The notes below the pieces were generated by a model. That model made no database searches. It saw only the letters and a list, made by a program, of their open reading frames with translations, and was not told the origin of the DNA. The position numbers were made by a program, and so were the translations under genes. From Norana najaformis (Eukaryota > Annelida > Clitellata > Crassiclitellata > Hormogastridae): DNA of 64,000 nucleotides. Positions 14,330 to 53,728 of the stretch are shown here, piece by piece. Every line of letters begins with the position of its first letter. Within the stretch, counting starts at the first letter, position 1. Location: contig OZ029916.1 of NCBI GenBank assembly GCA_964023275.1, positions 35,465,727-35,529,726 of the forward strand. The letters run 5' to 3'.

Positions 14330-14467
14330 TAACCTCGGGGTCAGTCCTCGGACCTTAAATGGCGTGACATCCATTTAAACGGGCAGCGGTGGTGAACGAT
14401 AAATTCATTGAAAATAACCATGATCGAGGCCAAACGGTCGCTATAAAAATTCGTACATTTACATTTA
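14330..14467 (+). repeat. SINE family A, copy 2
   Basis: Lies between HSD17B10 and MRPL46. Shows CTTAAATGGCGTGACATCC, GGGCAGCGGTGGTGAACG, GATCGAGGCCAAACGGTCGC, CTATAAAAATTC and the ACATTTACATTTA tail. Confidence 0.8.
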
Positions 14468-14787
14468 ACGTTGGAATTTGACTTGAAACCAAATCTAACT
14501 TTTCTACTGGCTTTTATTTGAACGTTAACAGTTATAATAGAGATATTTGTTTTAAAATGCCAGACATCCGTACAACTGCAAGTAATGTATACAGATGGAC
14601 AAAGAATGACTGTTGAGAGGTACAACCAACGATTTTAGAAGGGAAGGGCACCACTTCTTGAATTTTTTTGGGTAGAACTCAAACATTAAAATATTTAAAT
14701 AAAGGCGCTACAAAAATAATAATAACCATCTATAATGCATGTCTTCGTTCCAAAGATATATTTTGCTTCGTACTGTGATAGTGGTCA

Positions 14788-20639: not shown

Positions 20640-21110
20640 GAACGTCTGCAGACAATGACCTACTTTGGACCCTTCCGTAGCTTATCCCGCAAATGGCGTT
20701 ACTCTCCCACCCCTGTTGCGGACGTTTGCACCCCAAAGGCCTACTATGGCATGGCGGTACTCATTCAAACCGGCAGCAGCGGTGAAGGATCTCGCCCGAT
20801 AATTTGATTGTAAAATGAGCAGGGTCGGGGCCATACTGTCGCTATAAAAACTGTATACATTTACATTTTACTTGATACTATCGCTTTCAGCAAAGAGGCT
20901 CTACTAAGATCCAATGCAGTAAAGCCTGCTATCTGACTGAAGTTGGTGTTTTATTAAGGCAAAGGCTATGCTGAAATAACTACTGTATGTACCAACTTGA
21001 GATGCGCACGTCCGCACTGGGCAAAAAGTAAACCCCCTCCCCTTGTCCGCATTTGGGTGACCTCTTCCTCACTCTGCGGACTTCCTTTATGGACAGCCCC
21101 TAAGCATTGT
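20640..21110 (+). repeat. Interspersed repeat family E, copy 1 (holds SINE A copy 3)
   Basis: Two blocks on either side of SINE A copy 3. The left block reads ACTTTGGACCCTTCC and CGCAAATGGCGTTACTC. The right block (20890-21110) reads GATCCAATGCAGTAAAG, GCTGAAATAACT, CCCTCCCCTTGTCCGCATTT and TGCGGACTTCC. The same blocks occur in the same order at 30385-30770, where no SINE lies between them. Confidence 0.65.
20738..20870 (+). repeat. SINE family A, copy 3
   Basis: Shows GGCAGCAGCGGTGAAGGATC, GCCCGATAATTTGATTG, GGTCGGGGCCATACTGTCGC, CTATAAAAAC and the ACATTTACATTTTA tail. It is joined on its left to a family E segment. Confidence 0.8.
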
Positions 21111-21868: not shown

Positions 21869-24800
21869 ATGGCCCTGTTATTATTTGTGATTCTGTTTGT
21901 TGTAATTTTTTTCACAATAGCGCCAAAATTTTTATCGGCATTATCAAGCAAGGTATTGTTAACCAGTAAAATAGGTAATATTTCGGTAGCCTTTTGAAAC
22001 TAGCCAAGATATGCTCTATTATCGCCCACTTCAATACAAATTGCTTATTGCAAGCATTGTAATTAAATACGCAGTTTTCAAAGAAAATGCCGTTGTTTTA
22101 CTAGTATTAAATATGCCATTTTGTGATGCGCGTCTACACCTTTATACGAATTAGGCTGCCAGTTAGTTTCTGAAGCGTTTAAAGGTTTTATCGCAAACTG
22201 GACACAGACTTATATCATCAGTTGCCAACCAAAAGCTTAAGGGTAGAAACAATACAGAGAAGCAGAGCCGTCCTTTAAGCTAGCCCAGAGAGGCAGTATG
22301 AAGTATGAGTATGAAGTGTTGGCGACTTAATTTCACCTAGCCTTGGTATATGAGGGTGAGTTGCCAGCCATCCCTTGCCGCTTGATCTTCCCAATGACAG
22401 TCTACGGTCAGTGTAGTCATTATAGCCGAGTTTGCTAGGGGGCGCAAGTGGAGCAGAATTCCTGAAATAAATTTCCGGCCTGGCGGGGAGTCCAGCGCAC
22501 TAACCACACTGCTATAAATCATCCCAAATAATAAATAGTGAGCACCTAGTATAGAATCAGACACACTATGTGGTGATTTTGTATTCAAAGTCAGATGTAT
22601 TGTAACAATGAAACACAAATTCCTAATTAAATTTCAGCCATTGTAGTTTAAAACAAAGCAGGGCTGCATGCTTAACGATATTTCACAAATTCTACTAACC
22701 AATACTGTAGTTCACCCACCATGTTCTGTCTCAATGACCATTATTTATTTACTCATCCGGTATTCAATTCAAAACAGAAATCTCACCTTTTCAAAAAATC
22801 TTACCCTGATCAATCCAATCCACCTTTATATTTCTCTGAACCTAAACTAAACACAACCCACCATAACAGCTCCTCTACCCCCTTCTCTCTGGTCTTGTGG
22901 CAACTGGACTTTGCTCTTATATCATCTTTGAATAACCCCTTTGAATTGACACTGCGCGAATGAATAAGCTGGTGCCCTGTGATTAGCTTTAAAGTGACGC
23001 TTTAGAAATTCTTAAGATTATGATTACAAACTACTAAGCCACTTGCATTTATATAAATGCTACATTTACAACATTTTTCACACACATGTTGCACCATTTT
23101 GCAAACCATAGACTCGGAGGTTAATATCAGAAGCATCGGCAATCTGCTACGATGAAAACTACTGACAGTTTAGTAATTGTAAGCAATTATAGTCGGCACC
23201 TAGAAATATTTCAAGTCTGGCTGAATGTGATGTTGTGCATTTGCAGGTGTTAATATCTGAGCTGCTGACATTTTTTTGTAGCTGACGCAGTTTGTTGTTA
23301 AGCCATCTGCCAACGAGCATGATTTGAAAGAACAGCTGAATACACTGAAGAAGGAGCTTATTTCCATCAATATGGTTGATGAATTTCCTAGATATGCTCG
23401 AACTGAACGGAAGGTCAACAAGTTGAAGTCAGAAATTCAGTCGCTTGGTACGTCGGCTTAACACTTCGTGCTATTGTGCTATTATGTTTGTATTACAGTA
23501 TTGGATAAGGATCTTTAAAAGCCACTGAAATGTGGCTGTATGACAGATCGAAGACGTGCACCTTAAGACAAGCTGAAATGTTTCTTGAGCTGTTTGTGGT
23601 AAAACAGTTAGGATTTTAATGGAAAATTGTGCCAGAAGGCTGGTCAGACGCATGAGAAAGTATGATGCTAGAGCTGGGAAGATATGAAGAAATTAAATAT
23701 GTTGATGGTACCAGAATGCATCAACTATGTATGTATGTATCAGAACATCTGTGTACAGAGACGTCACAGATACTTAGCTGTCAACAAGTACAAGTACTTT
23801 GGTGTCAAAGTACGAGTACAAGTACTTAGGTCATGATAAGATCTGTACTGAATATTTGTATTTGATTCGCTACAGATCAGAATAATGCTGTTAATTGTTT
23901 ATTTGTATTTGGCCGTATGGTTTCTTGAATCCGAATCCGAATATTAATGTGCTGTAAAAATTTTGATATCTACTAATAAAAATGCGCTATGTAAATTTTA
24001 ACGTTTACTAGTAGTAAATATGCTATATAAAATTAACTCTCTGGTTATCGATATAATATTTCTTTGTGATCTTCTATAAACAGTTATATTGTTTAATTAG
24101 TATCTAATGTTAAGTATTTTGATTTATTTGCTAAAGCTCAAAACAGAAGAGAAGTGTGTCTGAAGATGAAATTGGGAATCAATGTGTCATATCACATTCT
24201 TCAGGTAAATATTCACATTTGATAAATCTCCATATTTAATTTTTTTACCATATTTACTGGTTCTAATGCATCTCTTAAACCTACAGTGATTTGGCATGCA
24301 TTACAATGGCTGTTTTAATCAGGAAAAGCAAAGTGACCCATATAGTGCTTTCTTTTCCATAAAATGAAGGATCTTGAAGTTACTACATGGAAAATAAAGT
24401 ACTAATGCACTTAACATTGAATGCATTAGTGCATTCAAAGAAATTTTGATTAGTTTTCTTCTTTTAATGGTGCATTTCAATGAGTGTTGCTGGTAAAAGT
24501 AGAGAATTAAGCATTAAAAAAAGTGGGAGACACCATGTCATGTTCCGTAATGTTCATATGTATGCTTCCAAGAGTTGTTCATGGGTGCTGAAAGCCATGT
24601 TAACTATTGCATCTTAATAAGGTTCTGTTGTAATGAGGCTATGCTCTGCAGCCAAATTAGGTTTGGGATCCACGTTGCAGACTGCCTAGCATTTGAATTC
24701 GTGTTACAATGAAGTTTTTATTTGCGGCGTCTGAAGTATTTAAAACTGCGTTTTTACCTCCCAAACACTTTTTCTATTTCTTTGTTTTTGTACATCATTG

Positions 24801-26780: not shown

Positions 26781-26938
26781 AAGGGATGTAATAACTGAAC
26801 ACCTAGTCCTACCTGAACAATTATGCCTAATTTACCTTACCTTACCTAGCTGGCCCTGGTTAGCTACTTTCGTTAAACCTTACGTTAAAGCGCCTCTGTG
26901 CATGAGGATGCCGGTTCGCTTACCGATCGTGGCTATAT

Positions 26939-27112
26939 TTAAGGGATTTGAATCTCGGACTAGCACGGTCCAGTCACGGGGACCTTAAATGGCATCGCGC
27001 CCTTTCAAAGGCAGCGATGGTGAAGGATCTCACCTGATCAATTCATTGAAAACTGAGCAGGGTCGAGGCCATATGCAATCGCTATATAAAATCGTATATA
27101 TTTATACGTTTA
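26939..27112 (+). repeat. SINE family A, copy 5
   Basis: Near full length: GGGATTTGAATCTCGGACTA, GGGGACCTTAAATGGC, GGCAGCGATGGTGAAGGATC, GAGCAGGGTCGAGGCCAT, GCTATATAAAATCG, with a degenerate TATATTTATACG tail. Confidence 0.8.
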
Positions 27113-27777
27113 TAACGCGTAGTGCGTCGATCAATAATTGCCCATGAGCCGTAGAATTAATGGTAGGCATATATTTTGTTTAGTGGGCGATGTGTTGTTG
27201 TTACTTGGTCTACAATGGGCTTAATGTGTGCCTCGGAGTAATAACGGACGTGTAATGGCAAACGGATTAACGGGAAATCTAAAGCAACACATACACCTAC
27301 ACACGCACGCACACGGAAGGTGTTTGCGACTGCATTGTTGTTGCGACGACAACGTGCACAGTCATGAACGAAGGGGAGGCGGCCGTAGATCAAAGGGATC
27401 GATGATCGAGACCATCCAACTTTCTAAGAAAACCGAGGCCGCCGCGGAGACGGCGTGGAACGGGCCTTTGTACAGTAAAGGTAAAAACGCAGTACTTGTT
27501 TACATACGACTCTATGGACACTTCAGAGAATGTTCGTTGGGTTGAAGGATCTTCCGGCTGAAGCGCAAACACGACCATAGCAATTCAACAACAGCTCACC
27601 TTTCTAACCACACAACTTCTGTTTGTACTACTGAATTAAATAAGCTTTATTGAGCAGGAAGCTGCACAAGGGAAAAACTCGGAAGGAATGAGAAGGACGC
27701 ATGGAGCCGCTGTTGGAATCGTCAAAGGCCGAGGAAGGGACGGGCAGCCACTTCAACTAACCCCGACAGGCAGCCAT

Positions 27778-28013
27778 CGGCACGAAGTGTTAACGACTTC
27801 ATTTTCTCGGTTTTGGCGTATGAAGGTGGGTGCCACGGGTGGCCTGTCCTTCCACTATCCGTCTTTCCACCGATGGTGAATGGTCAATGCACTCATTTCA
27901 TAGCTAAGTTCGCTAGGGAGCGCAAGTGGAACAGAAATCACAAAAAAAATTGCTGACCTGTCGGCGAAAAAGTCGAGAACGCCGACCATTAGACTCGTGC
28001 AGTCCAAGCAGTG
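27778..28013 (-). repeat. SINE family B, copy 3
   Basis: Minus-strand copy. Read in reverse it gives TTGGACTGCACGAGTC at the 5' end, TTGCGCTCCCTAGCGAACTT in the body and GAAAATGAAGTCGTTAACAC at the 3' end. Confidence 0.7.
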
Positions 28014-28857: not shown

Positions 28858-29030
28858 GTCTGGGGGTTATCGTGCTGGACTGTCAACCTAGAGGTGGTGA
28901 GTTTAAATCTTCGTCACGGCAGAATGATATTTCGGGATTTCTGTTCCATTTGCGCCACCTAGCGCTCGACTGGTAACCCACGTTCATATGCCGAGGCTAA
29001 GAAAAATGAAGTTGTTAACATTTCATACTC
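28858..29030 (+). repeat. SINE family B, copy 4
   Basis: Shows GGGGGTTATCGTGCTGGACT, B-box-like GTGAGTTTAAATCTTC, TTTGCGCCACCTAGCGC and the 3' end GCCGAGGCTAAGAAAAATGA then AGTTGTTAACATTTC. Confidence 0.75.
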
Positions 29031-30384
29031 ATGACCTCTCGAAGTTAGCTCGTGACTGCTCATCGTCATCATCATTATCATCATCATTATCATCATCACC
29101 ACCACCACCATCATCGTCATCGTAATCATCAACGTCTTCCTCTATGTCTATGGGCAAACTGAGCTACATTAGTGCCTGCAATTTCCAGACATTAAGGATG
29201 TCTAGTAGTCGGCAGCCTGTATGGAAGTACTACGTGCACACTGTCGTTGGCGGGTGCGTATGTTAGACGGGGCAAATATTTGCTCCCTGCGCCCTCCGTC
29301 GGACCCCGCAAGCAGACGGAAAGTGACCGAGTCGCAAGTCTGAGACTAAGTCACGCGTTTTTCGTCGAGATTTGCCTCAGTGCAGCGCAGCCTAAGGACC
29401 TGTTAAGAGGTTTCAGCTGAAGCACATACACGTCGACATCGCCTCAACAGTCTGTGTAATAATTATTCCTACAGACCAACCTGTCCAACCAGAGAAGCTC
29501 CGCAAAAGAACACCTTTGCAAAGCGAACACGTGTTATGGATAATCGTACACGAAGGGTCGCCTCTATGGGCTTCGTGTATACTGAAGTAGCCGCAGACAG
29601 CGGTGGGGGTCCACAAGTGACTGGTGGAAGGGCAACTGGTGAACGACGGTGGCCATATCCAGTGGAACTATGGTCAGGTTTCGGAAGGGGGAGGGGATTA
29701 ACCCAAGGAAAATTACAATTTTGGCACTCACTTCCACAGAGTTCCCCATCTTAGATGGGGCCATGACTTGATTGCCCGTAAATTCCCCAAAGCATTCAGA
29801 CATCCAAAGTTGCTTCGGCTCACCTTACGTAATTTCTACCCAGTCCTCTTAGCGAATCCATAGAGCGCGGGAAAGTGTGCGTTTCTTTCAGGTAAAAATT
29901 TTAAGTGGGATATGACTGGAAGTGGATTTAGGTTCATTATAGATTGATATAGCGCCCTGTTGAGTCTAATGCTAAGTCAACATCAGTCCTCAGTTGGGGT
30001 TGAAGGATCTTTCAGCTGAGGCTGAAAGTGACGTTTATAGTAGATGGGATAACGTAAGATAATGTAGGCCTATTGCTAATTCATTGCGCGCCTCTTTCGA
30101 ATTAGTCCTCTTTAGGCGTGGTCCTAGCATTAAAAGAAATTTCAGCTGAAGCGCTTACACGACAACAGCAATCCTAACAACCTGACATTTCCTAATGTAA
30201 TGTAACGTACATCGTCGACATTTCTTAGAGCCAAACAAATGCCGCCTCAGAGATCTTTTTAATCACCACCAGCGCCTAGGAAAATCAAATCCATGAATGG
30301 CCGAGTTTTGGCTGGAATCGGTTTCGTTGCCAAGTCCAGGTAAAGACCTCGAAAAAGCGCCGGCAGCAAATGTACAGCTTGGGG

Positions 30385-31012: not shown

Positions 31013-31497
31013 AATTTTCAGAAATATGAACTCTGTTTATCGCCATTTGGCTAAACATGACATGCAGACAGACAGACAGACAGGCAGACACACAAAGACA
31101 GAGACAGACAGAGATATATAAATAAACGTGGGCAGACATTAACCGACTGCAGTTGATGCAACAGCAGGCTATACATTCATCGATCGATCGACCGACAACA
31201 AGAGACACGGATGACGTTGTTGCATTCCCTCCTCGTGTACTTGTGCAGTCGACCGTGACGGGTTTCGTGCTTTGACGCCAGCAACCCTGCTTCACTCTGA
31301 CCCACTGCTGTAGAGAACCAAAAGAACGTGGGAAAATGCGGGACGTATTGCATCCCGCCTTCTCTGCCTATCTCCTCCATTGTCTATCCATTCCTCTGAC
31401 GCTCTCGTCCTCCCTTTCTGCCACCCTACCAACCTACCTTTACGCGGCCTGCCTTTCCAGATGCTTGCCTTCCTTTCTCTGTCTTCTGTGCCCAATC

Positions 31498-31830
31498 TCA
31501 TCTGAAGCACGGATGTGTCATGTGTCTTCTCAAACACGGATGCATCGATGCATCGATTGAACTAAGAACGCATCCTTTGAAGCATGGAAGTAGACTCTGC
31601 AGTAAGACTACATCCTTTGAAACATGCATACTTACACTGAAGTAAGGAGGAACGCATCCACTGAAGCACGGATGCATCCTTTGAAGTAAGGATGTATCCT
31701 CTGAAGCACGGATACATCCTTTGAAGGATACATCATATGAAGCACAGATGCATCCTTTGAAGCATACACTGATGTATCATCTGAAGCATAGATATATTCT
31801 TTGAAACATGAGTACAACCCTTGAAGCCTG
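31498..31830 (+). repeat. Degenerate minisatellite, about 24-bp unit with GGATGCATCC core
   Basis: Repeats of CTGAAGCACGGATGCATCC and TTTGAAG, with variants GGATACATCC and GGATGTATCC. The core GGATGCATCC is a palindrome. No open frame runs through the repeat on the plus strand. Confidence 0.8.
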
Positions 31831-32073
31831 GACGAGCCAATGCATCAGGCTTACGACTAGACAAAGTTGAATGTAGGTTGCAAAGAAATTAAATGTAAGC
31901 AGATACCACAACAGTTAGCCCGAGAGACAATACAAGAAAACTGCAGTCATTCTCTGAATTCCGCTCTGATACCACGTGGGCTATATAATAATACCCCAGC
32001 TCTCTGGTCCATATACTATTAACTAGACGTCCATGCAAAAAGAAGCGCCGTCTTTCACGGAAGGCAGTAAGAC

Positions 32074-35000
32074 CAATTGTAGTTTTTATACAGTGGTCTT
32101 ACTGGGTTTAACGCCATGCCAGTAGTTGTAGTCTTTAAACAGTGGTCTTACTGGGTTTAACGCCATGCCAGCAATTGTAGTCTTTAAACAGTGGTCTCAC
32201 TGGGTTTAACGCCATGCCAGTAGTTGTAGTCTTTATACATTGGTCTTACTGGGTTTAACGCCATGCCAGTAATTGTAGTCTTTATACAGTGGTCTTACTG
32301 GGTTTAACGCCATGCCAGTAGTTGTAGTCTTTATACAGTGGTCTTACTGGGTTTAACGCCATGCCAGTAGTTGTAGTCTTTATACAGTGGTCTTACTGGG
32401 TTTAACGCCATGCCAGTAGTTGTAGTCTTTATACAGTGGTCTTACTGGGTTTAACGCCATGCCAGTAATTGTAGTCTTTATACAGTGGTCTTACTGGGTT
32501 TAACGCCATGCCAGTAGTTGTAGTCTTTATACAGTGGTCTTACTGGGTTTAACGCCATGCCAGTAGTTGTAGTCTTTAAACAGTGGTCTTACTGGGTTTA
32601 ACGCCATGCCAGTAATTGTAGTCTTTATACAGTGGTCTTACTGGGTTTAACGCCATGCCAGTAGTTGTAGTCTTTATACAGTGGTCTTACTGGGTTTAAC
32701 GCCATGCCAGTAATTGTAGTCTTTAAACAGTGGTCTTACTGGGTTTAACGCCATGCCAGTAGTTGTAGTCTTTATACAGTGGTCTTACTGGGTTTAATGC
32801 CATGCCAGTAGTTGTAGTCTTTATACAGTGGTCTTACTGGGTTTAACGCCATGCCAGTAGTTGTAGTCTTTATACAGTGGTCTTACTGGGTTTAACGCCA
32901 TGCCAGCAATTGTAGTCTTTAAACAGTGGTCTTACTGGGTTTAACGCCATGCCAGTAGTTGTAGTCTTTATACAGTGGCCTTACTGGGTTTAACGCCATG
33001 CCAGTAATTGTAGTCTTTATACAGTGGTCTTACTGGGTTTAACGCCATGCCAGTAATTGTGGTCTTTGTACAGTGGTCTTACTGGGTTTAACTCCATGCC
33101 AATAATTGTAGTCTTTATACAGTGGTCTTACTGGGTTTAACGCCATGCCAACAATTGTAGTCTTTATACAGTGGTCTTACTGGGTTTAACACCATGCCAG
33201 TAGTTGTAGTCTTTATACAGTGGCCTTACTGGGTTTAACGCCATGCCAGTAATTGTAGTCTTTATACAGTGGTCTTACTGGGTTTAACGCCATGAGAGCA
33301 ATTGTAGTCTTTATACAGTGGTCTTACTGGGTTTAACGCCATGCCAGTAATTGTGGTCTTTGTACAGTGGTCTTACTGGGTTTAACGCCATGCCAGCAAT
33401 TGTAGTCTTTATACAGTGGTCTTACTGGGTTTAACGCCATGCCAGTAGTTGAAGTCTTTATACAGTGGTCTTACTGGGTTTAACGCCATGACAGCAATTG
33501 TAGTCTTTATACAGTGGTCTTACTGGGTTTAACGCCATGCCAGTAATTGTAGTCTTTATACAGTGGTCTTACTGTGTTTAACGCCATGCCAGTAATTGTA
33601 GTCTTTATACAGTGGTCTTACTGGGTTTAATGCCATGCCAGTAGTTGTAGTCTTTATACAGTGGACTTACTGGGTTTAACGCCATGCCAGTAGTTGTAGT
33701 CTTTATACAGTGGTCTCACTGGGTTTAATGCCATGCCAGCAATTGTAGTCTTTATACAGTGGTCTCACTGGGTTTAACGCCATGCCAGTTATTGTAGTCT
33801 TTATACAGTGGTCTTACTGGGTTTAACGCCATGCCAGTAATTGTAGTCTTTATACAGTGGTCTCAATGGGTTTAATGCCATGCCAGTAATTGTAGTCTTT
33901 ATACAGTGGTCTTACTGGGTTTAACGCCATGCCAGCAATTGTAGTCTTTATACAGTGGTCTCACTGGGTTTAACGCCATGCCAGTTATTGTAGTCTTTAT
34001 ACAGTGGTCTAACTGGGTTTAACGCCATGCCAGTAATTGTAGTCTTTATACAGTGGTCTTACTGGGTTTAACGCCATGCCAGTAATTGTAGTCTTTATAC
34101 AGTGGTCTTACTGGGTTTAACGCCATGCCAGCAATTGTAGTCTTTATACAGTGGTCTTACTGGGTTTAATGCCATGCCAGCAATTGTAGTCTTTATACAG
34201 TGGTCTTACTGGGTTTAACGCCATGCCAGTTATTGTAGTCTTTATACAGTGGTCTCACTGGGTTTAATGCCATGCCAGTAGTTGTAGTCTTTATACAGTG
34301 GTCTTACTGGGTTTAACGCCATGCCAGTAATTGTAGTCTTTATACAGTGGTCTCAATGGGTTTAACGCCATGCCAGTAATTGTAGTCTTTATACAGTGGT
34401 CTTACTGGGTTTAACGCCATGCCAGTAATTGTAGTCTTTATACAGTGGTCTTACTGGGTTTAACGCCATGCCAGTAATTGTAGTCTTTATACAGTGGTCT
34501 CAATGGGTTTAATGCCATGCCAGTAATTGTAGTCTTTATACAGTGGTCTTACTGGGTTTAACGCCATGCCAGCAATTGTAGTCTTTATACAGTGGTCTCA
34601 CTGGGTTTAACGCCATGCCAGTTATTGTAGTCTTTATACAGTGGTCTAACTGGGTTTAACGCCATGCCAGTAGTTGTAGTCTTTATACAGTGGTCTTACT
34701 GGGTTTAACGCCATGCCAGTAATTGTAGTCTTTATACAGTGGTCTTACTGGGTTTAACGCCATGCCAGCAATTGTAGTCTTTATACAGTGGTCTTACTGG
34801 GTTTAATGCCATGCCAGCAATTGTAGTCTTTATACAGTGGTCTTACTGGGTTTAACGCCATGCCAGTTATTGTAGTCTTTATACAGTGGTCTCACTGGGT
34901 TTAACGCCATGCCAGTAGTTGTAGTCTTTATACAGTGGTCTTACTGGGTTTAACGCCATGCCAGTAATTGTAGTCTTTATACAGTGGTCTTACTGGGTTT

Positions 35001-38000
35001 AACGCCATGCCAGCAATTGTAGTCTTTATACAGTGGTCTCAATGGGTTTAACGCCATGCCAGTAATTGTAGTCTTTATACAGTGGTCTTACTGGGTTTAA
35101 CGCCATGCCAGTAGTTGTAGTCTTTATACAGTGGTCTTACTGGGTTTAACGCCATGCCAGCAATTGTAGTCTTTAAACAGTGGTCTTACTGGGTTTAACG
35201 CCATGCCAGTAGTTGTAGTCTTTAAACAGTGGTCTTACTGGGTTTAACGCCATGCCAGTAATTGTAGTCTTTATACAGTGGTCTTACTGGGTTTAACGCC
35301 ATGCCAGTACTTGTAGTCTTTATACAGTGGTCTTACTGGGTTTAACGCCATGCCAGTAGTTGTAGTCTTTATACAGTGGTCTTACTGGGTTTAACACCAT
35401 GCCAGCAATTGTAGTCTTTAAACAGTGGTCTTACTGGGTTTAACGCCATGCCAGTAGTTGTAGTCTTTATACAGTGGTCTTACTGGGTTTAACGCCATGC
35501 CAGTAGTTGTAGTCTTTATACAGTGGTCTTACTGGGTTTAATGCCATGCCAGTAGTTGTAGTCTTTATACAGTGGTCTCACTGGGTTTAACGCCATGCCA
35601 GTAGTTGTAGTCTTTATACAGTGGTCTTACTGGGTTTAACGCCATGCCAGTAGTTGTAGTCTTTATACAGTGGTCTTACTGGGTTTAACGCCATGCCAGT
35701 AGTTGTAGTCTTTAAACAGTGGTCTTACTGGGTTTAACGCCATGCCAGTAGTTGTAGTCTTTATACAGTGGTCTTACTGGGTTTAACGCCATGCCAGTAG
35801 TTGTAGTCTTTATACAGTGGTCTTACTGGGTTTAATGCCATGCCAGTAGTTGTAGTCTAAATACAGTGGTCTTACTGGGTTTAACGCCATGCCAGTAATT
35901 GTAGTCTTTATACAGTGGTCTCACTGGGTTTAACGCCATGCCAGCAATTGTAGTCTTTATACAGTGGTCTTACTGGGTTTAACGCCATGCCAGCAGTTGT
36001 AGTCTTTATACAGTGGTCTTACTGGGTTTAACTCCATGCCAGTAATTGTAGTCTTTATACAGTGGTCTCACTGGGTTTAACGCCATGCCAGTAGTTGTAG
36101 TCTTTATACAGTGGTCTTACTGGGTTTAACGCCATGCCAGCAATTGTAGTCTTTAAACAGTGGTCTTACTGGGTTTAACCCCATGCCAGTAGTTGTAGTC
36201 TTTATACAGTGGTCTTACTGGGTTTAATGCCATGCCAGCAATTGTAGTCTTTATACAGTGGTCTTACTGGGTTTAACGCCATGCCAGTAGTTGTAGTCTA
36301 AATACAGTGGTCTTACTGGGTTTAACGCCATGCAAGCAATTGTAGTCTTTAAACAGTGGTCTTACTGGGTTTAACGCCATGCCAGTAGTTGTAGTCTTTA
36401 TACAGTGGTCTTACTGGGTTTAACGCCATGCCAGTAATTGTAGTCTTTATACAGTGGTCTTACTGGGTTTAACGCCATGCCAGTAGTTGTAGTCTTTATA
36501 CAGTGGTCTTACTGGGTTTAACGCCATGCCAGTAGTTGTAGTCTTTATACAGTGGTCTTACTGGGTTTAACGCCATGCCAGTAGTTGTAGTCTTTATACA
36601 GTGGTCTTACTGGGTTTAACGCCATGCCAGTAGTTGTAGTCTTTAAACAGTGGTCTTACTGGGTTTAACGCCATGCCAGTAGTTGTAGTCTTTATACAGT
36701 GGTCTTACTGGGTTTAACGCCATGCCAGTAGTTGTAGTCTTTATACAATGGTCTTACTGGGTTTAACGCCATGCCAGTAGTTGTAGTCTAAATACAGTGG
36801 TCTTACTGGGTTTAACGCCATGCCAGTAATTGTAGTCTTTATACAGTGGTCTCACTGGGTTTAACGCCATGCCAGCAATTGTAGTCTTTATACAGTGGTC
36901 TTACTGGGTTTAACGCCATGCCAGCAGTTGTAGTCTTTATACAGTGGTCTTACTGGGTTTAACGCCATGCCAGTAATTGTAGTCTTTATACAGTGGTCTC
37001 ACTGGGTTTAACGCCATGCCAGTAGTTGTAGTCTTTATACAGTGGTCTTACTGGGTTTAACGCCATGCCAGCAATTGTAGTCTTTATACAGTGGTCTTAC
37101 TGGGTTTAATGCCATGCCAGCAATTGTAGTCTTTATACAGTGGTCTTACTGGGTTTAACGCCATGCCAGTAATTGTAGTCTTTAAACAGTGGTCTTACTG
37201 GGTTTAACGCCATGCCAGTAATTGTAGTCTTTAAACAGTGGTCTTACTGGGTTTAACGCCATGCCAGTAATTGTAGTCTTTATACAGTGGTCTTACTGGG
37301 TTTAACGCCATGCCAGCAATTGTAGTCTTTATACAGTGGTCTTACTGGGTTTAACGCCATGCCAGTAATTGTAGTCTTTATACAGTGGTCTTACTGGGTT
37401 TAACGCCATGCCAGCAATTGTAGTTTTTATACAGTGGTCTTACTGGGTTTAACGCCATGCCAGTAGTTGTAGTCTTTATACAGTGGTCTTACTGGGTTTA
37501 ACGCCATGCCAGCAATTGTAGTCTTTAAACAGTGGTCTTACTGGGTTTAACGCCATGCCAGTAATTGTAGTCTTTATACAGTGGTCTTACTGGGTTTAAC
37601 GCCATGCCAGCAATTGTAGTCTTTATACAGTGGTCTTACTGGGTTTAACGCCATGCCAGTAATTGTAGTCTTTATACAGTGGTCTTACTGGGTTTAACGC
37701 CATGCCAGTAATTGTAGTCTTTATACAGTGGTCTTACTGGGTTTAACGCCATGCCAGCAATTGTAGTCTTTAAACAGTGGTCTTACTGGGTTTAACGCCA
37801 TGCCAGTAATTGTAGTCTTTATACAGTGGTCTTACTGGGTTTAACGCCATGCCAGTAATTGTAGTCTTTATACAGTGGTCTTACTGGGTTTAACGCCATG
37901 CCAGCAATTGTAGTCTTTAAACAGTGGTCTTACTGGGTTTAACGCCATGCCAGTAGTTGTAGTCTTTATACAGTGGTCTTACTGGGTTTAACGCCATGCC

Positions 38001-38460
38001 AGTAGTTGTAGTCTTTATACAGTGGTCTTACTGGGTTTAACGCCATGCCAGCAATTGTAGTCTTTATACAGTGGTCTTACTGGGTTTAACGCCATGCCAG
38101 CAATTGTAGTCTTTAAACAGTGGTCTTACTGGGTTTAACGCCATGCCAGTAGTTGTAGTCTTTATACAGTGGTCTTACTGGGTTTAACGCCATGCCAGTA
38201 ATTGTAGTCTTTATACAGTGGTCTTACTGGGTTTAACGCCATGCCAGCAATTGTAGTTTTTATACAGTGGTCTTACTGGGTTTAACGCCATGCCAGTAGT
38301 TGTAGTCTTTATACAGTGGTCTCACTGGGTTTAACTCCATGCCAGTAATTGTGGTCTTTATATAGTGGTCTTACTGGGTTTAACGCCATGCCAGCAATTG
38401 TAGTCTTTATACAGTGGTCTTACTGGGTTTAACACCATGCCAGTAATTGCAGTTTTTATG
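32074..38460 (+). repeat. Satellite array, 49-bp monomer, about 130 copies
   Basis: Head-to-tail monomers of 49 bp made of, in order, CCAGTARTTGTAGTC, TTTATACAGTGGTCT, TACTGGGTTTAACGCCATG. Copies differ at only a few positions: TAGTT/TAATT/CAATT/TTATT after CCAG; TATACAG/AAACAG; TTACTGG/TCACTGG; AACGCC/AATGCC. The period is not a multiple of three and no long frame is open, so it is not coding. Each monomer carries a short inverted pair, CCAGTA and TACTGG, 24 bases apart. Shared variants recur at 637 bp (13 monomers) and 931 bp (19 monomers), which shows higher-order duplication. The left edge is sharp; the right edge fades into diverged copies. Confidence 0.97.
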
Positions 38461-38880
38461 TAGTGGCCGACGCCATTGTACCTAGTATTCTTTTCCAGTC
38501 TCGCTGGGTATAATGCCGTGTCGGTGATCCGTGTATTTGTTTTGGTCTTACTGCGTTTAATGCTGTTCGAATTATCCTAATATTTTTGCTAGTGTTATAG
38601 GAAGCAGCCTAAGTCTTTGCTAGTGTCCCTAGTATTTAGTCTGTTCTTACTGGATTTGAGGTCAAGCGATTGATTCTGCAACCATTTGTCTTATTCTTGC
38701 TGGGTTTAAGGCTGTGTGAACGATTCTCGGTCATGGTTAACTTCATGCCGGAGATGAAATGTTTATGGTGGGTTTTACTTCAGCGAACGCTGTAAGTAAT
38801 CCTATAATTTGTGTTGGTCTTCTTGTTTCTGTCGCCATGCTAGTGTTTGTATCATGTATGGCGGTCTTGCCGGGGTGGTG
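38461..38880 (+). repeat. Decayed right margin of the 49-bp satellite
   Basis: Diverged monomers keep roughly the 49-50 bp spacing: CTCGCTGGGTATAATGCCG near 38500, GGTCTTACTGCGTTTAATGC near 38545, TTCTTACTGGATTTGAGG near 38645, TTCTTGCTGGGTTTAAGG near 38692, and GGTCTTCTTGTTTCTGTCGCC near 38818. Divergence is far higher than inside the array. Confidence 0.75.
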
Positions 38881-38884
38881 ATCG

Positions 38885-39121
38885 GTTGTTTAGTGGTTGG
38901 CGTGCTTGATTTTCAAGCGAACGGTTGTTGATTCAAATTCCGCCGGGGCAGAAACTGTTCGAGATTTTGGCTCAACTTACGCCCTCTAGCCAAGTCAGCT
39001 GAAATGAGTACAGTCCACTGCATACTGCCACTAGAACGATCAAGCGGCGAGGGAGAGAAATTGCCACCCGCCCTACTATTCCGAGGATAAGAAACTGAAG
39101 TTGCCAACACTTCGTAGGCAT
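38885..39121 (+). repeat. SINE family B, copy 5
   Basis: Clear tRNA-like head: A box TTTAGTGGTTGGCGTGC and B-box-like GATTCAAATTCCGCC. The body has ACGCCCTCTAGCCAAG and CAAGCGGCGAGGGAGAG, and the 3' end reads CCGAGGATAAGAAACTGAAG. It lies just beyond the decayed margin of the 49-bp satellite. Confidence 0.8.
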
Positions 39122-39964
39122 GGCTGCCTCTCGAGCGTAGCTTAAGCTCTTAATTAGCTTTTCTTCTGTTCGACTGGACGCTCTGCCTGTGATCCTAATA
39201 TTTATCTTGGTACTCCTCAGTAGCCGAGATGATACAAGAGTTCATTAAGAACATCAAATTAACTCGTAAGCAACTAATGCTCAGACGACCGCTCAGAAAA
39301 CCAGAAAGAAAACAGGAAGTCACTGTTGGCGAGCTACCGCTTGCACGTAAAGCTCAAGCAACGAAGCTGCTTCCATAGTTGGAAGTAGAAACAATGTTCA
39401 TATTTCCTGGTCCGCGTTGCCTCGAGGACGCTGAATGGGCACGGCCGAATGAAGCCTACAGCACGTGGTTACATCATCGACTGGCGCTGCTTCGCAGATG
39501 GTTGAATAGGTCATGCAAGGTCAGGCCAGATCATACTCGATTGGACTGGACTGAACTGTACTAGACGAGATTTGATTTGATGCGAGAGGGCACTTCCTCT
39601 GTATGGTTGGGACCTTCGCTGCCCTATTATAGGCCTACGTTTTCAGCACACATGCCGATTCTCCTTACCTTGTGTTTGGCTGCAGTGCTATTAACTAACT
39701 AAACTTAAACCATTATCTTACGCTAGTAAATATTTTGTAAGATATCAGCTAGTTTTAAACCGTTTTCTATCGCTTGTACATTACTCCTACTAACTAAAAG
39801 CTTAGAACGAAGCAGTATGCAAATTATTGGAACGATAAACAATAGCTTTCTTAAATAATTAGTGCAAAAAATAAAAAATGTGTTACTCGTATCTTCGCTT
39901 CCGTAGTGGCATGCATTCTGTCGTCTGTACTGTGTATATACAGCCCGAAGCTGTTTTACACGTC

Positions 39965-40285
39965 GACCATCTTCAAATTCTTCTTCATGCGAAGCTTTTC
40001 CAACATCGACCGTCTTCAAATTCTTCTTCATTCGAAGATTTTTCACTATCGACAGTCTTCAAATTCTTCTTCATGCGAAGATTTTGCAACATCGACCGTC
40101 TTCAAATTCTTCTTCATTCGAAGATTTTCCACTATCGACAGTCTTCAAATTCTTCTTTATTCGAAGATTTTCCAACATCGACCGTCTTCAAATTCTTCTT
40201 CATTCGAAGATTTTGCAACATCGACCGTCTTCAAATTCTTCTTCATTCGAAGATTTTGCAACATCGACCGTCTTCAGATTAGATT
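39965..40285 (+). repeat. Minisatellite, 43-bp unit, about 7 copies
   Basis: The unit is ATCGACCGTCTTCAAATTC then TTCTTCATTCGAAGATTTTGCAAC in variants; steps of 43 bp were measured (40004 to 40047). Because 43 is not a multiple of three, each unit shifts frame. All three plus frames stay open, which gives overlapping pseudo-ORFs. Confidence 0.88.
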
Positions 40286-40532: not shown

Positions 40533-40690
40533 TTCGGCTAGGATGGTCCGTACACGGGGACCGTAAACGGCGTGGCGCCCATTCAAACGGGCCGCGGTGG
40601 TGATTATCTCACCCAATGACTTTACAAAATATGAGTAGGTCTTGGCCAAACGATCGCTATAGAAAACTGTGTATATTTACATTTACACTT
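40533..40690 (+). repeat. SINE family A, copy 6
   Basis: Shows GGATGGTCCGTACACGGGGA, CCCATTCAAACGGGC, GGTCTTGGCCAAACGATCGC, CTATAGAAAACTG and a TATTTACATTTACA tail. Confidence 0.8.
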
Positions 40691-43075: not shown

Positions 43076-46000
43076 ATGGCGGTCACAATCCGAACAGAAG
43101 ACCGGCGGAAAAGCGTTGCTATGACGACACTCGTCATTGTGGCGTCATGTCTGACGCTCGCCCCAGCCAGTGTGGGAGAAAGAAGGCCGAGACAAAATGA
43201 CGTCGATGCTGCCAGCGCCAGGTTCAAGCGAGGGCAGTCGATAGGCAGCGTCGAATGCCAATACAGGTGCAGCGGCGGTGGCGGCGGCGGACAGGTAAGA
43301 CATGCGCCAGCAGCCAATCAACCGCTGCAGGTGTTATCGGCTACGTGCTTATTAATGGCGTACGCAGCGAATTGCATGATCGCACTTGTCACACGCTTCT
43401 GTTGTTCAACCTGTTGTTGTTGTTGTTGTTGATGATGATGATGATGTTGTTGTTGTTGTTGTTGTCTTGCTGATGCCGATAATGTTGGAACAGCTGCAGT
43501 TACTTCTACTGTTGTAGTTGTAGTTGTAATCGCATATTTATATGGCGCCTTTTCAAGAGAGACTCATCAGACCTAATAACAGAAAACCACGATCGACAAA
43601 TGGTTTTCAGTGGCTTCTGCTTGTTGTAATAATGCGTTGTTGTTTTCATGTTCTTGTTTTGTTGCAGACGATGTTGTAACAGCTGGCGTTGCTTCTGCTG
43701 TTCTTGTTGTCCTTGCTGATGCTGTTTTCTTGTTGTTACAGATGCAGTTGCTATGACATTCTGTTTGTGCTGTTGCATTTAAGGTTGTAATTCATAGCAA
43801 AATGAGCAAGGTCGAGGCCATACGGTCGCTATATAAAACCTATACATTTATATTTACATTTGTATGTAGGTGCTACTTTATAACAAATGAAACATATTAT
43901 AGTCACGGGAGAAGTTCTCCATTCCATTATTACCATATGATTGTGATTATGGCAAACATAATACTTATTCATGACTGAATTCCGAGTCTTCCTGTCATAA
44001 AACGCCTACACTCAACGAAGGTGCCTATAATATACAAAAGGTTAACGCATTAATGAGAATGTGCTGCACAGCTTATGAAAGCGAGTTCAGAAATTCGGTG
44101 AATAAATGAACAACGTCTGCGTGAATGTTGCTTAGATTGTTAGCAACAGTCGGGTAGAATACGCCGTGCTGATTCTGCTTATTGTTTACGATTGAATGAC
44201 GATTTAGGGCACAGGCAGAGACATATATCACAGGAAAAACAGGAGACATCATCAAAAGAATAAGTGAATATATAAGCAAACATCAAGCTTTAGTAACGCA
44301 TAAACTGTAAAGCTAATTATCAGTTCATAGACTTCTGTAAGTAAACAATTTTTCGGTTGAACTATTCCCAACCAACCAGTCACAAGAATAAACGATAGAC
44401 TAAAGACATTTGGGTGAAAAAGACACCAGAGTGCCTCAGTTATGGGGAGGGTTGGGATTCCCACCTTTAAGTATATTTTCGGCCATCTCCTGGTTAAGGT
44501 GGGTTCTGTGGATAATGGTGAAAGGTATACAATGTAGCTGGCAAATTTTCATGTAGCTCAAAGTGTGATGAGCCTAACGCCCTAATTATTGGCGGAGACG
44601 GTTGATTATAGGACTGCCTTGAGTGTTTCCCACTTGATTCTTCCCAGCCAGAAGAATTAAGTGGGAAAATATCACTGTATTATACAGTGATATTTTCCCA
44701 CTTAATTCTTCTGTATATTCGTGAATTCCACAAACATCGAGAAGACCGTAGAAGAAGAAAATTCATAAAATCCTAGCTATAGGGGTCTGTACAGCATAAA
44801 TACGTGAATTGATTACAATGAATTATTAAAACGACTTTGTAATCAGCTGCTGAATTAATTAGCGAATCAGTTATTTATTAGCCGTGGCACCTGCAGAGAA
44901 AGGGCGAGAGGCAGGCGGCAGCAGCAAGTGCCTGGCAGTTGCATCTCATTAGTGCGATTTCTGGTCGCCGAAATTGACGGTTGCTGCCGCTGGAATTAAC
45001 GCAGCACGTCTTGCTTCGGTCTCTGCCATTAACATTTTATGGGCCGATGGCCGTTGGTTGGCCGACCATCGACCGAATCCATACAATGCTCGCCTGGCCG
45101 GCCGTCAACGAACATGTGGCATCGAACCAAAAGGCCTCGGCTGCTGCTGCTGCTGGTGTTGTTGCTGTTGTTGGTGATGACGGTCTCAGGAGTGATGTAC
45201 TTTACTAGTCAAATCCAATCGATTACGTGTCATCGAACGAACCAGCACCTCTGTCTCTCTCTTTCTCTTTCTCTTTCTCTGTCTGTCTATCTGTCTGTCT
45301 CTATCTCTCTCTGTCTCTCACTGGCGCTGGCCGCAGTTCCCCACTCGTGCATGCAGTTTAATTCTTCTTCTTCTTCTTCTTCTTCTTCTTCTTCTTCTTC
45401 TTCTTCTTCTTCTTCTTCTTCTTCTCCTCCTCCTCCTCCTCCTCCTCCTTCTCCTCCTTTGTTACTCTGCTGCTTTGAGCCACCTAGCCTTTCCTTGCTT
45501 TTCTTTTAAAGTAATCTTGAACAGCTTTTCCTTTTTTCATGTTACTTCTGTTCTCGCTCTTCCTCTTTCTCCGTTTCCCATTAATTCTTCTTTTTCTTCT
45601 TCCTCATTTTCCTCATGTTTCTTTTTAATTTTCTTCATCGTCACCCTACTCTGTCTTTGCCATGCTCCGTATTACTTTACTTCCTTCTCGACCTCTTTTC
45701 TTTCAATTTTTAACCAATTTATTCTCCTCTTTATTCTTCTATCCCTCGGCTTTTGCTAACTGTTCTGACTGTTCTCACCACGTGATAGTCGAGCCGGCAA
45801 ATTTGTCATTTTAACATAATCTGTGGTTGCATGTCGAGCTTTTTACGGGCGCTTAGCGTACATTTAGACCAAAATCTGCACTTAGTGGTTTGCACTGGCT
45901 TCAAATTTCACTCAGTTCGTCAATTGCCGAGAAAGCGATATCTCAGTTTGCCGAATACACAGTCGGCCATTTTGACTTGCCGACTATAGTCGACCATTGT

Positions 46001-49000
46001 GCTTTGCCGAATACACAGTCAGACATTTTGGTTTGCCGAATACACAGTCAGCCATTTTGATTTGCCGAATACACAGCCAGCCATGTTGATTTGCCGAATA
46101 CACAGTCGGCCATTTTGATTCGTGGAATACACAGTCGGCCATTTTGATTTGTGCAATGCACAGTTAGCCGTTTTCATTTGCCGAATACACAGTCGGCCAT
46201 TTTGATTTACCTTATTCACAGCCAGTCATTTTGATTCGCTGAACCTTTCATTCAGTCATTAAGGTGGATATTTTAGTCGATCTTGGTAAGATTGGACTCG
46301 AAACAGAATCGGACTATGTCAATTCGAGATTTAAACGCGATTTTGTCCTGTAACGGCGAATCAGAGATATAAAAAGCAAGCGAGGCAGGTTCTTCAATGT
46401 GAATAAAGCTATTTTGGTGGAGACATAACACAGAAACGTGCAGTTGTGAGTGCACGTTTTGTACAGTCCAATTTTGCGTAAAAAATTTCAGCCTTGTTTC
46501 CAATATTACTTATGGGATTCGTGCAGCGATAAAGTTTTCATGAAAAATATCTTGCAGATGATACAGTGCCAACTGAATGATTTTCGTTGAGTGGCCTTGT
46601 GAGTTTCTATGACAGACTGATTGTCGATTCCGATATTTTAGAAAAATACGAATTCTGGGCTGTGTTCTGGATCGAGTGTGACTCAGGTATTCGCCCCAAA
46701 TCCAAACTCGGAGCAGTTACCGTGTATTTTCGAGCGTCTCACCGATGAGCCAACTCCTATTATTCAAGCGTGCAGCGATGGTGAATGCTCTCACCCGATA
46801 AATTTATTCAAAAATGAACAGGTTGGAGGCCGTACGGTCGCTTGTACATTTACATTTATCATTATAGACTGTGGACCAGGTAAGCTAATTACCAGGTCTC
46901 CATGGGTTCAGCCGAAAGACCAAACAACCAAGGGACACGACTTTCACGACTCTGCATTATAATTTTAGATATAGCACATTAGGAATGATCCATTGACCTG
47001 ACCTTATACCTGACCTTACTACATACATAATAAGACGTGTGGGACGGCAGCTGGTGACGCAAATGCGGGCAGTAAAATCACCGTTTCTTCACTTAACACG
47101 AAACACCTCAACGTCAGTTCGTACAGTTATTGAGTCATTATTGCGTCATTATTCTGGCGGCGACGCAACAAAATGACTAGATATCTGACTTCCTTTATTC
47201 GGTCATTTATGGCGGAGCAGTCTATCGTTTCGGTCATAAAACATCTGCCGTAAAAATGAAGAAGCGCACCAGTTGGCCCGGAAAAAGCCATTTATTAAAC
47301 TCATATCGCAATATTACAACTTCCAGGTCCCGGTCACTGAGTTCAATCTCCACCGAAAAAAAATCGGCTGTATATCCCCGCATCATAAGCCGACATATCA
47401 ATTATACATATAGGCTAATAAATATTTGTGTATAGGCATATTTAAGCTATATATATGCCTCAAGTTGCATCTTTAAGCCACATATGATGCATATAGTCAT
47501 GTATTATATATAAACATATATAGGTAAGTAAGCAATACATTTCTGAACACGCCATATATAATATTGTGGTCCGCTGAAGAGACGCCGAGCAGACAAGTAG
47601 AGGAACTGTGTTTTATAGCGCCAGCATAAGAAGTCGACTACATATGGAGTCTGCGTGTTCATAGTGATTAGCTTTCCATGCATTTGGTTTCTTAATCTGA
47701 CCTTGATTAGTCGTCATCGGCGGCGGGAAAGCGTACGTCATGCATGCTTAATTTTATTTGTCGTCGTCGCCGTCGTCATAGAGACGCCGTCATAGAGTCC
47801 AACGTCTAGGTCCATATATAATCCGAGGACGACAGTAGCTCCACACAGCGACAGCCAGCTGTGCTTGTGAGTAGGTAAAAAGGAAGGCGCGCCGTCTTAT
47901 GTAAGAATTATGATGATGCTTTGTTCGGGAGGAAGACGGAAGTTGTTTCCTTCTGAGAATCACGGGATACATACAAATGTGAATTAAAGATTATGCGCAT
48001 GCCGTTTATATTTCTTGGTCCGCATACTGCATGATTTACGAATGTAGGCCTATATGAATGAGTATATGTATGTGTATGTATAGATACATGCATCCATGCT
48101 TGCATGTATGTGTGTGTGCAAGTGTGCATGTATGTATGTGTGTGTGCAAGTGTGCATGTATGTATGTATGCATGTATATGTATGTATGTATGTATGTATA
48201 TATGTTTGTATTTATGTATGTATATATGTATGTAGTATGTATGTATGCAGTATATGTATGTATGTAGTATGTATGTATGTATGTATTTGTTAATGTGCAT
48301 ATGTTCCGAGGTATGCATAAATACGTACTTATATATACATAAGTATTAATTTTTTTATTTATATATGTATAGATATGTTTCTATGCTTGCATTTATGTTT
48401 GTATTGTACATTATCTGTGTATGTTTCTATGTATGTATCGGTATTTGTATGTATGTATGTATGTATATATGTATGTATGTATGTAACACCCTGTTGGAAT
48501 GCTTGGCTATACCCCGAGGTAGGGCAACCCGCCATACCTCGGGGTCTGTGTATGAGCAACAAACGCAGATTGGCAACATAATAAGCTGTTGCAATGTTGT
48601 TTCCGTTGCTTGACACTGCTGTGCCTGTCAGCGTCGTATCCACGGCGCCACACTGCTACCCATGTCAAAACGCCGCAGGGGATTTATCCATTAAGCTGAC
48701 TTACATTACGCATTAAGCTGTACAAGGCGCAAATAAATTTCAAGACTCTGTATTTAACGGTCCTAGGGTTTTCGAACCTATACTCGATCAAAGGCAGTCT
48801 CCCTTTCTTGGCCCCTGATCTCGAGGGTCGACCGTCGAAAACGGGAAGGTCGGCTCAAGCGAGTTTCAACGAGAATCGCCATCTGGAACTCTCTTCTGTA
48901 AATAAACCACAGCCCACCATCGTCATACCACACTACCATTACCACAGCATACCACCAACGCCCCACGGTAATACAACTGCTTCTTCTGCTTCTTCTGCTT

Positions 49001-50840
49001 CTTCTTTTTCTTCTTCATCTTCTTCCTCTTCTTCTTCTTCTTCTTCCTCTTCCTCTTCTTCCTCTTCCTCTTCTGCTCCTCCTCTTCCTCCTCCTCCTCC
49101 TCTTCTCCTCCTCTTCCTCCTCTTCTCCTCCTCTTTCCTCCTCCTCCTCTGCTTCTACTCCTCTCCTCCTCCTTCTCTTCTTCTCCTCTCCCTCCTCCTC
49201 TTCTTCTCCACCTCCTCCTCCTATTCTCCTCCTCCTCTCCTCCTCCTCCTCTTTCCTCCTCCTCCTCTGCTTCTACTCCTCTCCTCCTCCTTCTCTTCTT
49301 CTCCTCTCCCTCCTCCTCTTCTTCTCCACCTCCTCCTCCTATTCTCCTCCTCCTCTCCTCCTCCTCCTCTTTCCTCCTCCTCCTCTGCTTCTACTCCTCT
49401 CCTCCTCCTCCTTCTCTTCTTCTTCTTTCTGTTTTTTCTGTTTGGATTATCGTTAATTTTCCACTCACGAGGGGCGTCATCGACGCAGAGTCACGCGCGC
49501 GCGGTTGTCTCAAGCGTTGAAAGGCAGACGAGTTTATATGGTCTTCGTTTGGTCCTGGTCTCTTGCTTGGTCCTCTTCTACGGCCGTCCGATTGTTTATA
49601 ATCTTCGTCTGCCTGTGGCGTAAATACGAAATGGCGCGCGCGCCGTTTCTTTGTAAGCAGACGACCGGGTTACGTTGAACAGAAGAGCCCGGATGCACCA
49701 AGGGCAAATGCCCGGGGGGATGCAGGGAGAGAGGGAGAGAGGAAGAGAGGGAAGCAGGGGAGAGAGACAGAGGCAGAGGAGCGGTAATTCAATTGCGGTG
49801 TTTATTGTAAAGTGGAATGGCTCCAGGACGGGCCAGAAATGAGGTAAAAGGAGAGGAGGTGGAGGAGGAGAAGGAAGAAAAGAAGGAAGAGGATGAGGGA
49901 GATTTTGGCAGAGGAGGAAGAGAAAAAGCAGGAGGAGAATGAAGAGGAGGAGAAGGTGGAAGAGGAGTATAGCAGGCGAAATAGAAACGAAGGAGTAGGA
50001 GGAATCGCAGGAGAAGGAGGAAAAGAAGGAGGATTGAGTAGGAGGATTACGATGAGTAGGAGTAGGAAGGGTTGGAATGGAAGGAGTAGCTGGTGTGAAG
50101 GAGGAGATTGCAAAGGAATAAAAGGAGGAGGAGGAGGAATAGAAAGAGGCGGAGGAGGAACAGGAGAAGGAACAGGAGGAGGAACAGGATGAGTAAGAAT
50201 AGGAGGAGGAGAGTACTATAGTAGTAGGAGAATAAGAATAGGAGTCTGAAGGAGAAGGATTTCGCAGTCTCTCCCACACACGGAAGAGCGACGGTTGCTT
50301 TTGCAATGGGAGCCGGAAATGGCCGATTCCATGCACTGAGTTCTGCTCCAGAACCAAACAAACGGCGAATATTAGACGCTTCAATCGCAACAAAATGACC
50401 GCAGAAATAAGAAATGCCGGCAAAGAAATCATCTTCATAACAATGACGAGTAAACACTGAAACAATACTCCTTTCGCTGTTTCGCTGTAACAATTGAGGC
50501 TCACTTACGCATCTTCTTATCCGAAACATCAAAATAATGGTAGTAGTAGTAATAGTAGCAGCAGTAGTAGTGTTAGTAGTAGTAGTAATGGGAGTGGTAG
50601 TAGTAGTGGTAGTAGTAGTAGTAAACTACTACTGGTAGTAGTAGTAGTAGTAGTACTGGTAATAATAACAATGACTGTGCATTTCGTTTCAGGGTGTTGC
50701 CTCATCCTGTCCTCTGTGGTGTCGGCAGATGTCGCTGATAACGGCTGCCATCGCCACCTCTTCCTTTACCTCTGCCTCCTCTTCTTCCTCCTCTTCCTCC
50801 ATCTCCTCCTCCATCTCCTCCTCTTCATCGTCATCTAAGA
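43076..50840 (+). CDS. Probable 5' exons of the same receptor kinase (signal peptide and Cys/Ser-rich segment)
   Basis: Two predicted exons. The first (43076-43294, 73 codons, donor GTAAGA) begins MAVTIRTEDRRKSVAM, then a hydrophobic stretch TTLVIVASCLTLAPASVG that reads as a signal peptide, and ends with GSVECQYRCS and a glycine run. The second (50693-50840, acceptor TTTCGTTTCAG, donor GTAAGT) reads GVASSCPLWCRQM, then a long serine run coded by TCC/TCT repeats. Phases join exactly: exon 1 ends in phase 0, and exon 2 leaves one base that completes AGC with the exon at 56574. Two CxxxC-type pairs are reminiscent of the Cys-rich start of anosmin-1 (inference). More small exons may exist in the 7.4-kb gap. 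The link to the kinase is by position and phase only. Confidence 0.55.
43390..43465 (+). repeat. (TTG)n/(ATG)n/(TTG)n compound microsatellite
   Basis: GTTGTTG, then GATGATG, then GTTGTTG triplets about 100 bases after the donor of the predicted signal-peptide exon. Confidence 0.9.
43796..43862 (+). repeat. SINE family A, 3' fragment (copy 7)
   Basis: Shows GAGCAAGGTCGAGGCCATAC, GGTCGCTATATAAAACC and the tail ACATTTATATTTACATTT. It sits in the first large intron of the receptor kinase. Confidence 0.75.
44650..44712. repeat. Perfect 30-bp inverted repeat, 3-base loop
   Basis: Left arm 44650-44679 and right arm 44683-44712 are exact reverse complements around the loop TTA. A partial third arm, TTTCCCACTTGATTCTTC, lies just upstream (about 44627-44644) and can pair with the left arm instead. 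No gene covers it. Confidence 0.95.
45361..45460 (+). repeat. (TTC)n then (TCC)n microsatellite
   Basis: About 21 TTC units followed by TCC units, after a CT-rich lead-in from 45250. Intronic. Confidence 0.92.
45951..46235 (+). repeat. Minisatellite, 29-bp unit, about 10 copies
   Basis: The unit is CCGAATACACAGTCGGCC then ATTTTGATTTG, with steps of 29 bp (46007, 46036, 46065). It lies in the presumed long intron of the receptor kinase. Confidence 0.88.
46755..46860 (+). repeat. SINE family A, copy 8 (partial)
   Basis: Shows CAGCGATGGTGAATGC, CACCCGATAAATTTATTC, GGTTGGAGGCCGTACGGTCG and the TACATTTACATTTA tail. All eight copies found run in the plus direction. Confidence 0.75.
48058..48295 (+). 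repeat. (GTAT)n microsatellite
   Basis: TGTATGTATG-rich stretch, with a second block at 48420-48485. Similar TACA-type blocks on the other strand lie at 485-570, 53870-53960, 56395-56530 and 56940-57030. Confidence 0.88.
48511..48545. repeat. 11-bp GC-rich hairpin
   Basis: ACCCCGAGGTA at 48511-48521 pairs exactly with TACCTCGGGGT at 48535-48545 around a 13-base loop. It follows directly after a GTAT microsatellite. Confidence 0.8.
48978..49440 (+). repeat. Polypyrimidine TTC/TCC tract with 118-bp internal repeat
   Basis: About 460 bases of nearly pure C/T. GCTTCTACTCCTCTCC recurs at 49151, 49269 and 49387, a tandem 118-bp period laid over the TTC/TCC microsatellite. Such tracts can form triplex (H-DNA) structures. 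Confidence 0.9.
49715..50255 (+). repeat. Purine-rich GGA/GAA tract
   Basis: About 540 bases of mostly A/G on the plus strand, opposite in strand sense to the pyrimidine tract at 48978-49440. Long low-complexity frames on the minus strand are by-products. Confidence 0.85.
50536..50660 (+). repeat. (TAG)n microsatellite before the predicted Ser-rich exon
   Basis: GTAGTAGTAG-type triplets ending about 35 bases before the acceptor of the predicted exon at 50693. Confidence 0.88.
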
Positions 50841-53489: not shown

Positions 53490-53728
53490 AAATCGTGGGT
53501 ACTGCCAGTATAAATACATATATACATACATACGCATACATACAAATCGTGGGTACTGCCAGTATAAATACATATATACATGCATACGCATACATACAAA
53601 TCGTGGGTACTGCCAGTATAAATACATATATACATGCATACGCATACATACAAATCGTGGGTACTGCCAGTATAAATACATATATACATGCATACGCATA
53701 CATACAAATCGTGGGTACTGCCAGTAGT
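53490..53728 (+). repeat. Minisatellite, 54-bp unit, about 4.5 copies
   Basis: The unit is AAATCGTGGGTACTGCCAGT then ATAAATACATATATACATGC and ATACGCATACATAC. Copies are almost identical. Since 54 is divisible by three, open frames with an 18-residue repeat appear on both strands; they have no coding support. Confidence 0.9.

Follow-up and report, generated by a model that had tools for sequence, protein, structure and literature searches.

In the 64,000-nucleotide stretch of Norana najaformis DNA analysed here (the window), an array of 130 full copies of a 49 bp monomer carries two duplications of multi-monomer blocks and ends on its right in decayed copies of the same monomer. We consider it likely that the array is a long non-coding minisatellite residing at a single locus, and that homologous exchange between copies paired out of alignment drives its turnover. 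The features of the array and of its edges are collected in the table below.

Features of the array and its edges (coordinates within the window)
Feature	Coordinates	Strand	Remarks
Homogeneous array	32075..38466	+	130 full 49 bp monomers and a 22 bp partial monomer; fixed register, no indel
637 bp block, first copy	33839..34426	+	Monomers 36-47; 0 of 1000 shuffles as high
637 bp block, second copy	34476..35112	+	Monomers 49-61, the extra monomer being number 59; gapped score 35.2
931 bp block, first copy	35603..36141	+	Monomers 72-82; score 24.7, 0 of 1000 shuffles
931 bp block, second copy	36534..37072	+	Monomers 91-101; 3 nt differences in 539 bp
Decayed monomers, about 8.6	38485..38874	+	62% identity to the consensus; wraparound alignment and blastn matches
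Partial monomer in reverse complement	32065..32074	-	10 bp exact (11 with the first array base, 32065-32075); abuts the left edge
Short dispersed repeat next to the decayed monomers	38940..39146	+	Diverged copies at 22275-22486, 27751-27964 and 15253-15426; short piece at 28976-29050

Tandem Repeats Finder describes the array with a period of 49, 130.4 copies, 95% matches and 0% indels, in agreement with the initial annotation, which had counted about 130 near-identical 49 bp monomers, and the window contains no N. When cut in a fixed register, the array yields 43 monomer types counting the partial monomer (42 without it). The monomers lie at a mean distance of 2.8% from the consensus, and their mean pairwise divergence is about 4.5% (0.047 in the comparison with simulations). 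Ten successive groups of 13 monomers carry a mean of 0.85-1.69 differences, with no clear trend along the array. Few sites account for most of the variation, as can be seen from the counts of A2G (50/131 units), T15A (18/131), T49C (35/130), T26C (17/130) and C38T (12/130). The only CpG of the monomer (positions 38-39; window 32075-38444) is lost in 19 of the 130 monomers, with C→T on seven different backgrounds, as would be given by recurrent deamination of a methylated CpG; alternatively, the loss could have been spread by conversion.

Both block duplications, of 13 and 19 monomers, are real. We searched the monomer-versus-monomer matrix for the best segment on each diagonal, giving more weight to rare variants held in common, and set the results against the best score from each of 1000 shuffles of the monomer order. 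At a lag of 13 monomers (637 bp), monomers 36-45 pair with monomers 49-58 at a score of 31.6; eight of the ten are identical, and the 490 bp contain 2 nt differences. At a lag of 19 (931 bp) the best segment joins the two 11-monomer copies given in the table, with nine of the 11 monomers identical. No shuffle reached either score, the highest shuffle score being 19.0. Of the 15 best diagonals, the other 13 lie at or below 7.6 and are uninformative, as all 1000 shuffles equal them. When whole-monomer gaps are allowed, the two blocks score 35.2 and 24.7, and the best of 100 shuffles 16.9. In the gapped alignment the first block grows to monomers 36-47 in one copy and 49-61 in the other, the second copy having gained a monomer, and nearly the whole of the 13-monomer tandem duplication is therefore still visible. 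For the second block, 11 of its 19 monomers are visible; a hand-set alignment gives a possible extension in which a monomer has been lost, although differences there are numerous.

Individual variants show the same spacings. GGTCTAACTGGG lies at 34006 and 34643, and CTCAATGGG, which is present four times, is followed by TTTAATGCC only at 33862 and 34499 (637 bp in both cases, or 13 × 49). Likewise, CCAGCAGTTG is found at 35990 and 36921 and CTAAATACAG at 35857 and 36788 (931 bp in both cases, or 19 × 49), the latter with a third copy at 36298. These pairs are the ones from which the initial annotation had read the two spacings, and both spacings hold; its positions were right to within four bases, although GGTCTAACTGGG had been placed four bases too high and the third copy of CTAAATACAG had been overlooked. 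It had also concluded that recent block duplications of different sizes had occurred inside one array. The scores confirm the blocks, and the duplications are recent relative to the array, since the copies of a block diverge by 0.4-0.6% compared with 4.5% between monomers at large.

The description of the array as nested higher-order repeats, on the other hand, has to be given up. The duplications extend over 33839-35112 and 35603-37072, side by side and without overlap, and each block has two copies; they are therefore neither nested nor higher-order. No multi-monomer unit amplified beyond two copies was found among the 15 best diagonals and the five best gapped alignments listed, and what is seen are two separate two-copy duplications rather than a multi-monomer unit amplified as the unit of homogenization. 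At the other end of the scale, there is no evidence of a shorter ancestral unit inside the 49-mer: its best internal self-match (20/49) is reached by 338 of 2000 shuffles.

How the array turns over can be approached from the likeness of neighbouring monomers. Monomers that adjoin resemble each other no more than randomly chosen ones do (z = 0.39 at lag 1), and eight of the 129 neighbouring pairs (6.2%) are identical. Monomers two to five units apart are more alike than random, the best lag being 4 (z = -3.75, p = 0.0058 over 40 lags), with low values also at lag 5 (z = -3.41) and lag 3 (z = -2.5). Copying of single monomers would make neighbours alike and is disfavoured for this reason. In simulations, which are rough and use hand-picked parameters that were not fitted, none of 80 arrays evolving by single-monomer slippage came down to 6.2% (identical neighbours 51-79%), nor did any of 100 further single-monomer arrays, some settings of which included conversion or hot mutable sites (lowest value 14%); another single-monomer set gave means of 21-69%. 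When the exchanged blocks averaged 4-15 monomers, 6.2% was reached in 13-78% of simulations, depending on the setting.

The distribution of variants over the monomers was followed by a second measure: all four allele combinations are present in 12 of 21 pairs of common variable sites (0.57). Under block exchange without conversion, the simulated mean fractions were 0.21, 0.04-0.09 and, with hot sites, 0.22-0.40; with short conversion tracts they were 0.46-0.66, 0.52-0.65 and 0.62-0.64. Single-monomer copying with conversion also gives 0.49-0.59, so that the fraction argues for conversion without bearing on the size of the blocks, and hot sites alone raise it as well. No simulated setting fits all of the observations. 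Among the block settings, those that bring neighbour identity down to the observed level are, where divergence was computed, about two to five times too divergent (0.088-0.24 compared with 0.047), and settings near the right divergence (0.037-0.077) give mean identical neighbours of 14-35% or 31%. Moreover, the run of identical monomers observed is four, and most simulated settings give longer ones (averages of 6.9-16.9 monomers for block models with 4-15 monomers). Within these models, multi-monomer unequal exchange combined with short-tract conversion comes closer to the data than single-monomer slippage.

The two edges of the array differ. The initial annotation had ended the array at 38460 and missed the decayed monomers of the right flank, the wraparound alignment of which to the monomer scores 58, a value that none of 20 resampled sequences approaches (13 or less). 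On the left, the same alignment gives no decayed monomers (score 8, at the level of that flank's own resampled sequences), and four control stretches score 7-10, again at the level of theirs. The reverse-complement match that abuts the left edge may be due to chance. Its placement is nevertheless curious, though noticed after the fact, because 10-mers of the monomer start at only nine positions outside the array: two in this left-edge stretch, three in the decayed flank and four elsewhere. Two further repeats lie close by. A degenerate repeat at 31492-31825, 250 bp to the left of the array, has GATGCATCCTTTGAAGCACG-like copies that are often 20 bp apart. The dispersed repeat next to the decayed end could be a tRNA-derived SINE, which is only a reading of the letters; a scan of the window with ARAGORN gave no tRNA.

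The initial annotation had called the array a satellite and had proposed a genome-wide search to tell a major satellite from a single locus. We compared a 301 bp probe from the array with the animal's own genome (608,420,607 bases in 17 contigs) and obtained 26 matches, all in this array. The search skips very common words, its counts are to be read as lower bounds, and a sequence without a match need not be rare. The matches all lie within C4:35497801-35504289, which corresponds to window 32075-38563, i.e. the array and the start of its decayed edge, and the first pass of the search had given one candidate place only. Since all 26 matches fall in this array at the sensitivity used, it looks like a large single-locus minisatellite and is probably not a major satellite: satellite DNA forms long arrays at many places in a genome, and the matches, as lower-bound counts, occupy 6.5 kb of one contig. 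A 49 bp unit in 130 full copies also lies within the range of 10-100 bp by which a passage of a review defines minisatellites (PMC5615363). Beyond this genome, an exact 24-mer is absent from viral_contigs and genome_contigs and a 501 bp query had no match in plasmids, although absence from these viral, bacterial, archaeal and plasmid collections says little; three monomer stretches sought as text in papers were not found.

The array might still be an outlier of a major satellite family, for example a centromeric one, seeded into a gene-containing region. Its 6.4 kb and 130 copies are, in our judgement, long for a minisatellite, and the genome search, in which a missing match does not prove rarity, leaves some room for such a family. 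With all 26 probe matches in this one array across 608 Mb and 17 contigs, and a decayed right end that suggests long residence, we hold this origin to be unlikely. Tandem arrays are also prone to misassembly, and copies that were collapsed or wrongly joined could have created the block structure or the array length. An artefact of this kind is less probable still, as the paired blocks differ by two and three substitutions, one pair also by a whole monomer, and the window has no N and lies inside a 17-contig assembly.

The array shows no sign of function that we could find in its sequence. Each of the six frames contains at least 119 stops and the longest open frame has 45 amino acids, which rules out a coding repeat. 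A structural RNA was rejected given the lack of any Rfam family at the gathering threshold in the window together with the weak fold of a trimer of the monomer, weaker than that of its shuffles (z = 1.51; 190 of 200 shuffles fold at least as well). A sequence-specific function, such as that of a binding-site array or a platform for phased nucleosomes, would find its best argument in the strongest correlation between monomers falling at lag 4 (196 bp). However, lag 5 is nearly as strong and lag 3 is low too, exchange alone can give such lag correlations, and the RNA and coding results are no more encouraging; we therefore give this explanation hardly any weight. The multiples 3 × 49 = 147 bp and 4 × 49 = 196 bp recall nucleosome lengths. 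It is conceivable, if highly improbable, that the strict 49 bp register is kept because three units make a nucleosome core and four a nucleosome repeat, chromatin phasing then guiding exchange and favouring steps of four monomers.

The reading that we prefer, turnover by homologous exchange, can be set out as follows. Sister chromatids misaligned by several whole monomers would undergo unequal exchange, or an equivalent break-repair event, by which multi-monomer blocks would be both duplicated and deleted; the 13- and 19-monomer duplications would be two such events that are still legible. Gene conversion over short tracts would shuffle variants among monomers. The exchange events seem to join homologous positions, because the register is kept without a single indel over 130 monomers. 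Exchange would also keep the interior homogeneous, and the right end, having passed beyond its reach, would have drifted to 62% identity. This decayed end agrees with the better homogenization of array centres than of ends described in a section of the same review (PMC5615363). A point against the exchange model is that the decay is one-sided, the left flank being without decayed monomers, and the model should be taken as a sketch rather than a fit.

The surrounding DNA has features of its own. Other minisatellites occur in the same 64 kb at 39963-40280, 45947-46243, 53489-53726 and 49024-49423 (units of 43, 29, 54 and 118 bp, respectively), and with its many microsatellites the region is rich in tandem repeats. 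A dispersed family of short repeats has at least seven diverged copies (2628-2810, 14339-14472, 20746-20868, 26920-27104, 40534-40686, 43789-43857 and 46762-46866), and a near-perfect palindrome at 44649-44713 matches its own reverse complement at 98% over 65 bp. Finally, the frame at 11188-11490, about 21 kb from the array, encodes part of a short-chain dehydrogenase; it is the sole frame above the cut-off among 20 translated frames compared with Pfam, and its nearest PDB match is 3-hydroxyacyl-CoA dehydrogenase type 2.

Block duplication is ordinary behaviour for repetitive DNA, and this array changes no view of repeat biology. It is a tidy example of tandem-array evolution, in which duplicated blocks, shuffled variants and the decay of one edge can be read side by side. 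It also suggests that an array may be long and uniform within a window without belonging to a satellite spread over the genome. Like the human minisatellite MSY1, it has variant monomers and a short unit repeated tens of times or more; at MSY1, changes in length and order were attributed by the authors to misalignment between sister chromatids and to conversion over short tracts (PMC2599865). The MSY1 allele described there has long single-variant blocks and changes by 1-3 repeats, whereas here, in one assembly, variants are interspersed, neighbours are unlike and the duplications span 13 and 19 monomers. With higher-order-repeat satellites, going by passages on alpha satellite (PMC5615363) and on Meloidogyne (PMC3694981), the array shares tandem monomers, a homogenized interior, a more divergent edge and the joint duplication of several monomers. 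In contrast to those satellites as portrayed there, it occupies one 6.4 kb locus at the sensitivity used, no unit beyond two copies was found in it and its monomers are only 4.5% apart.
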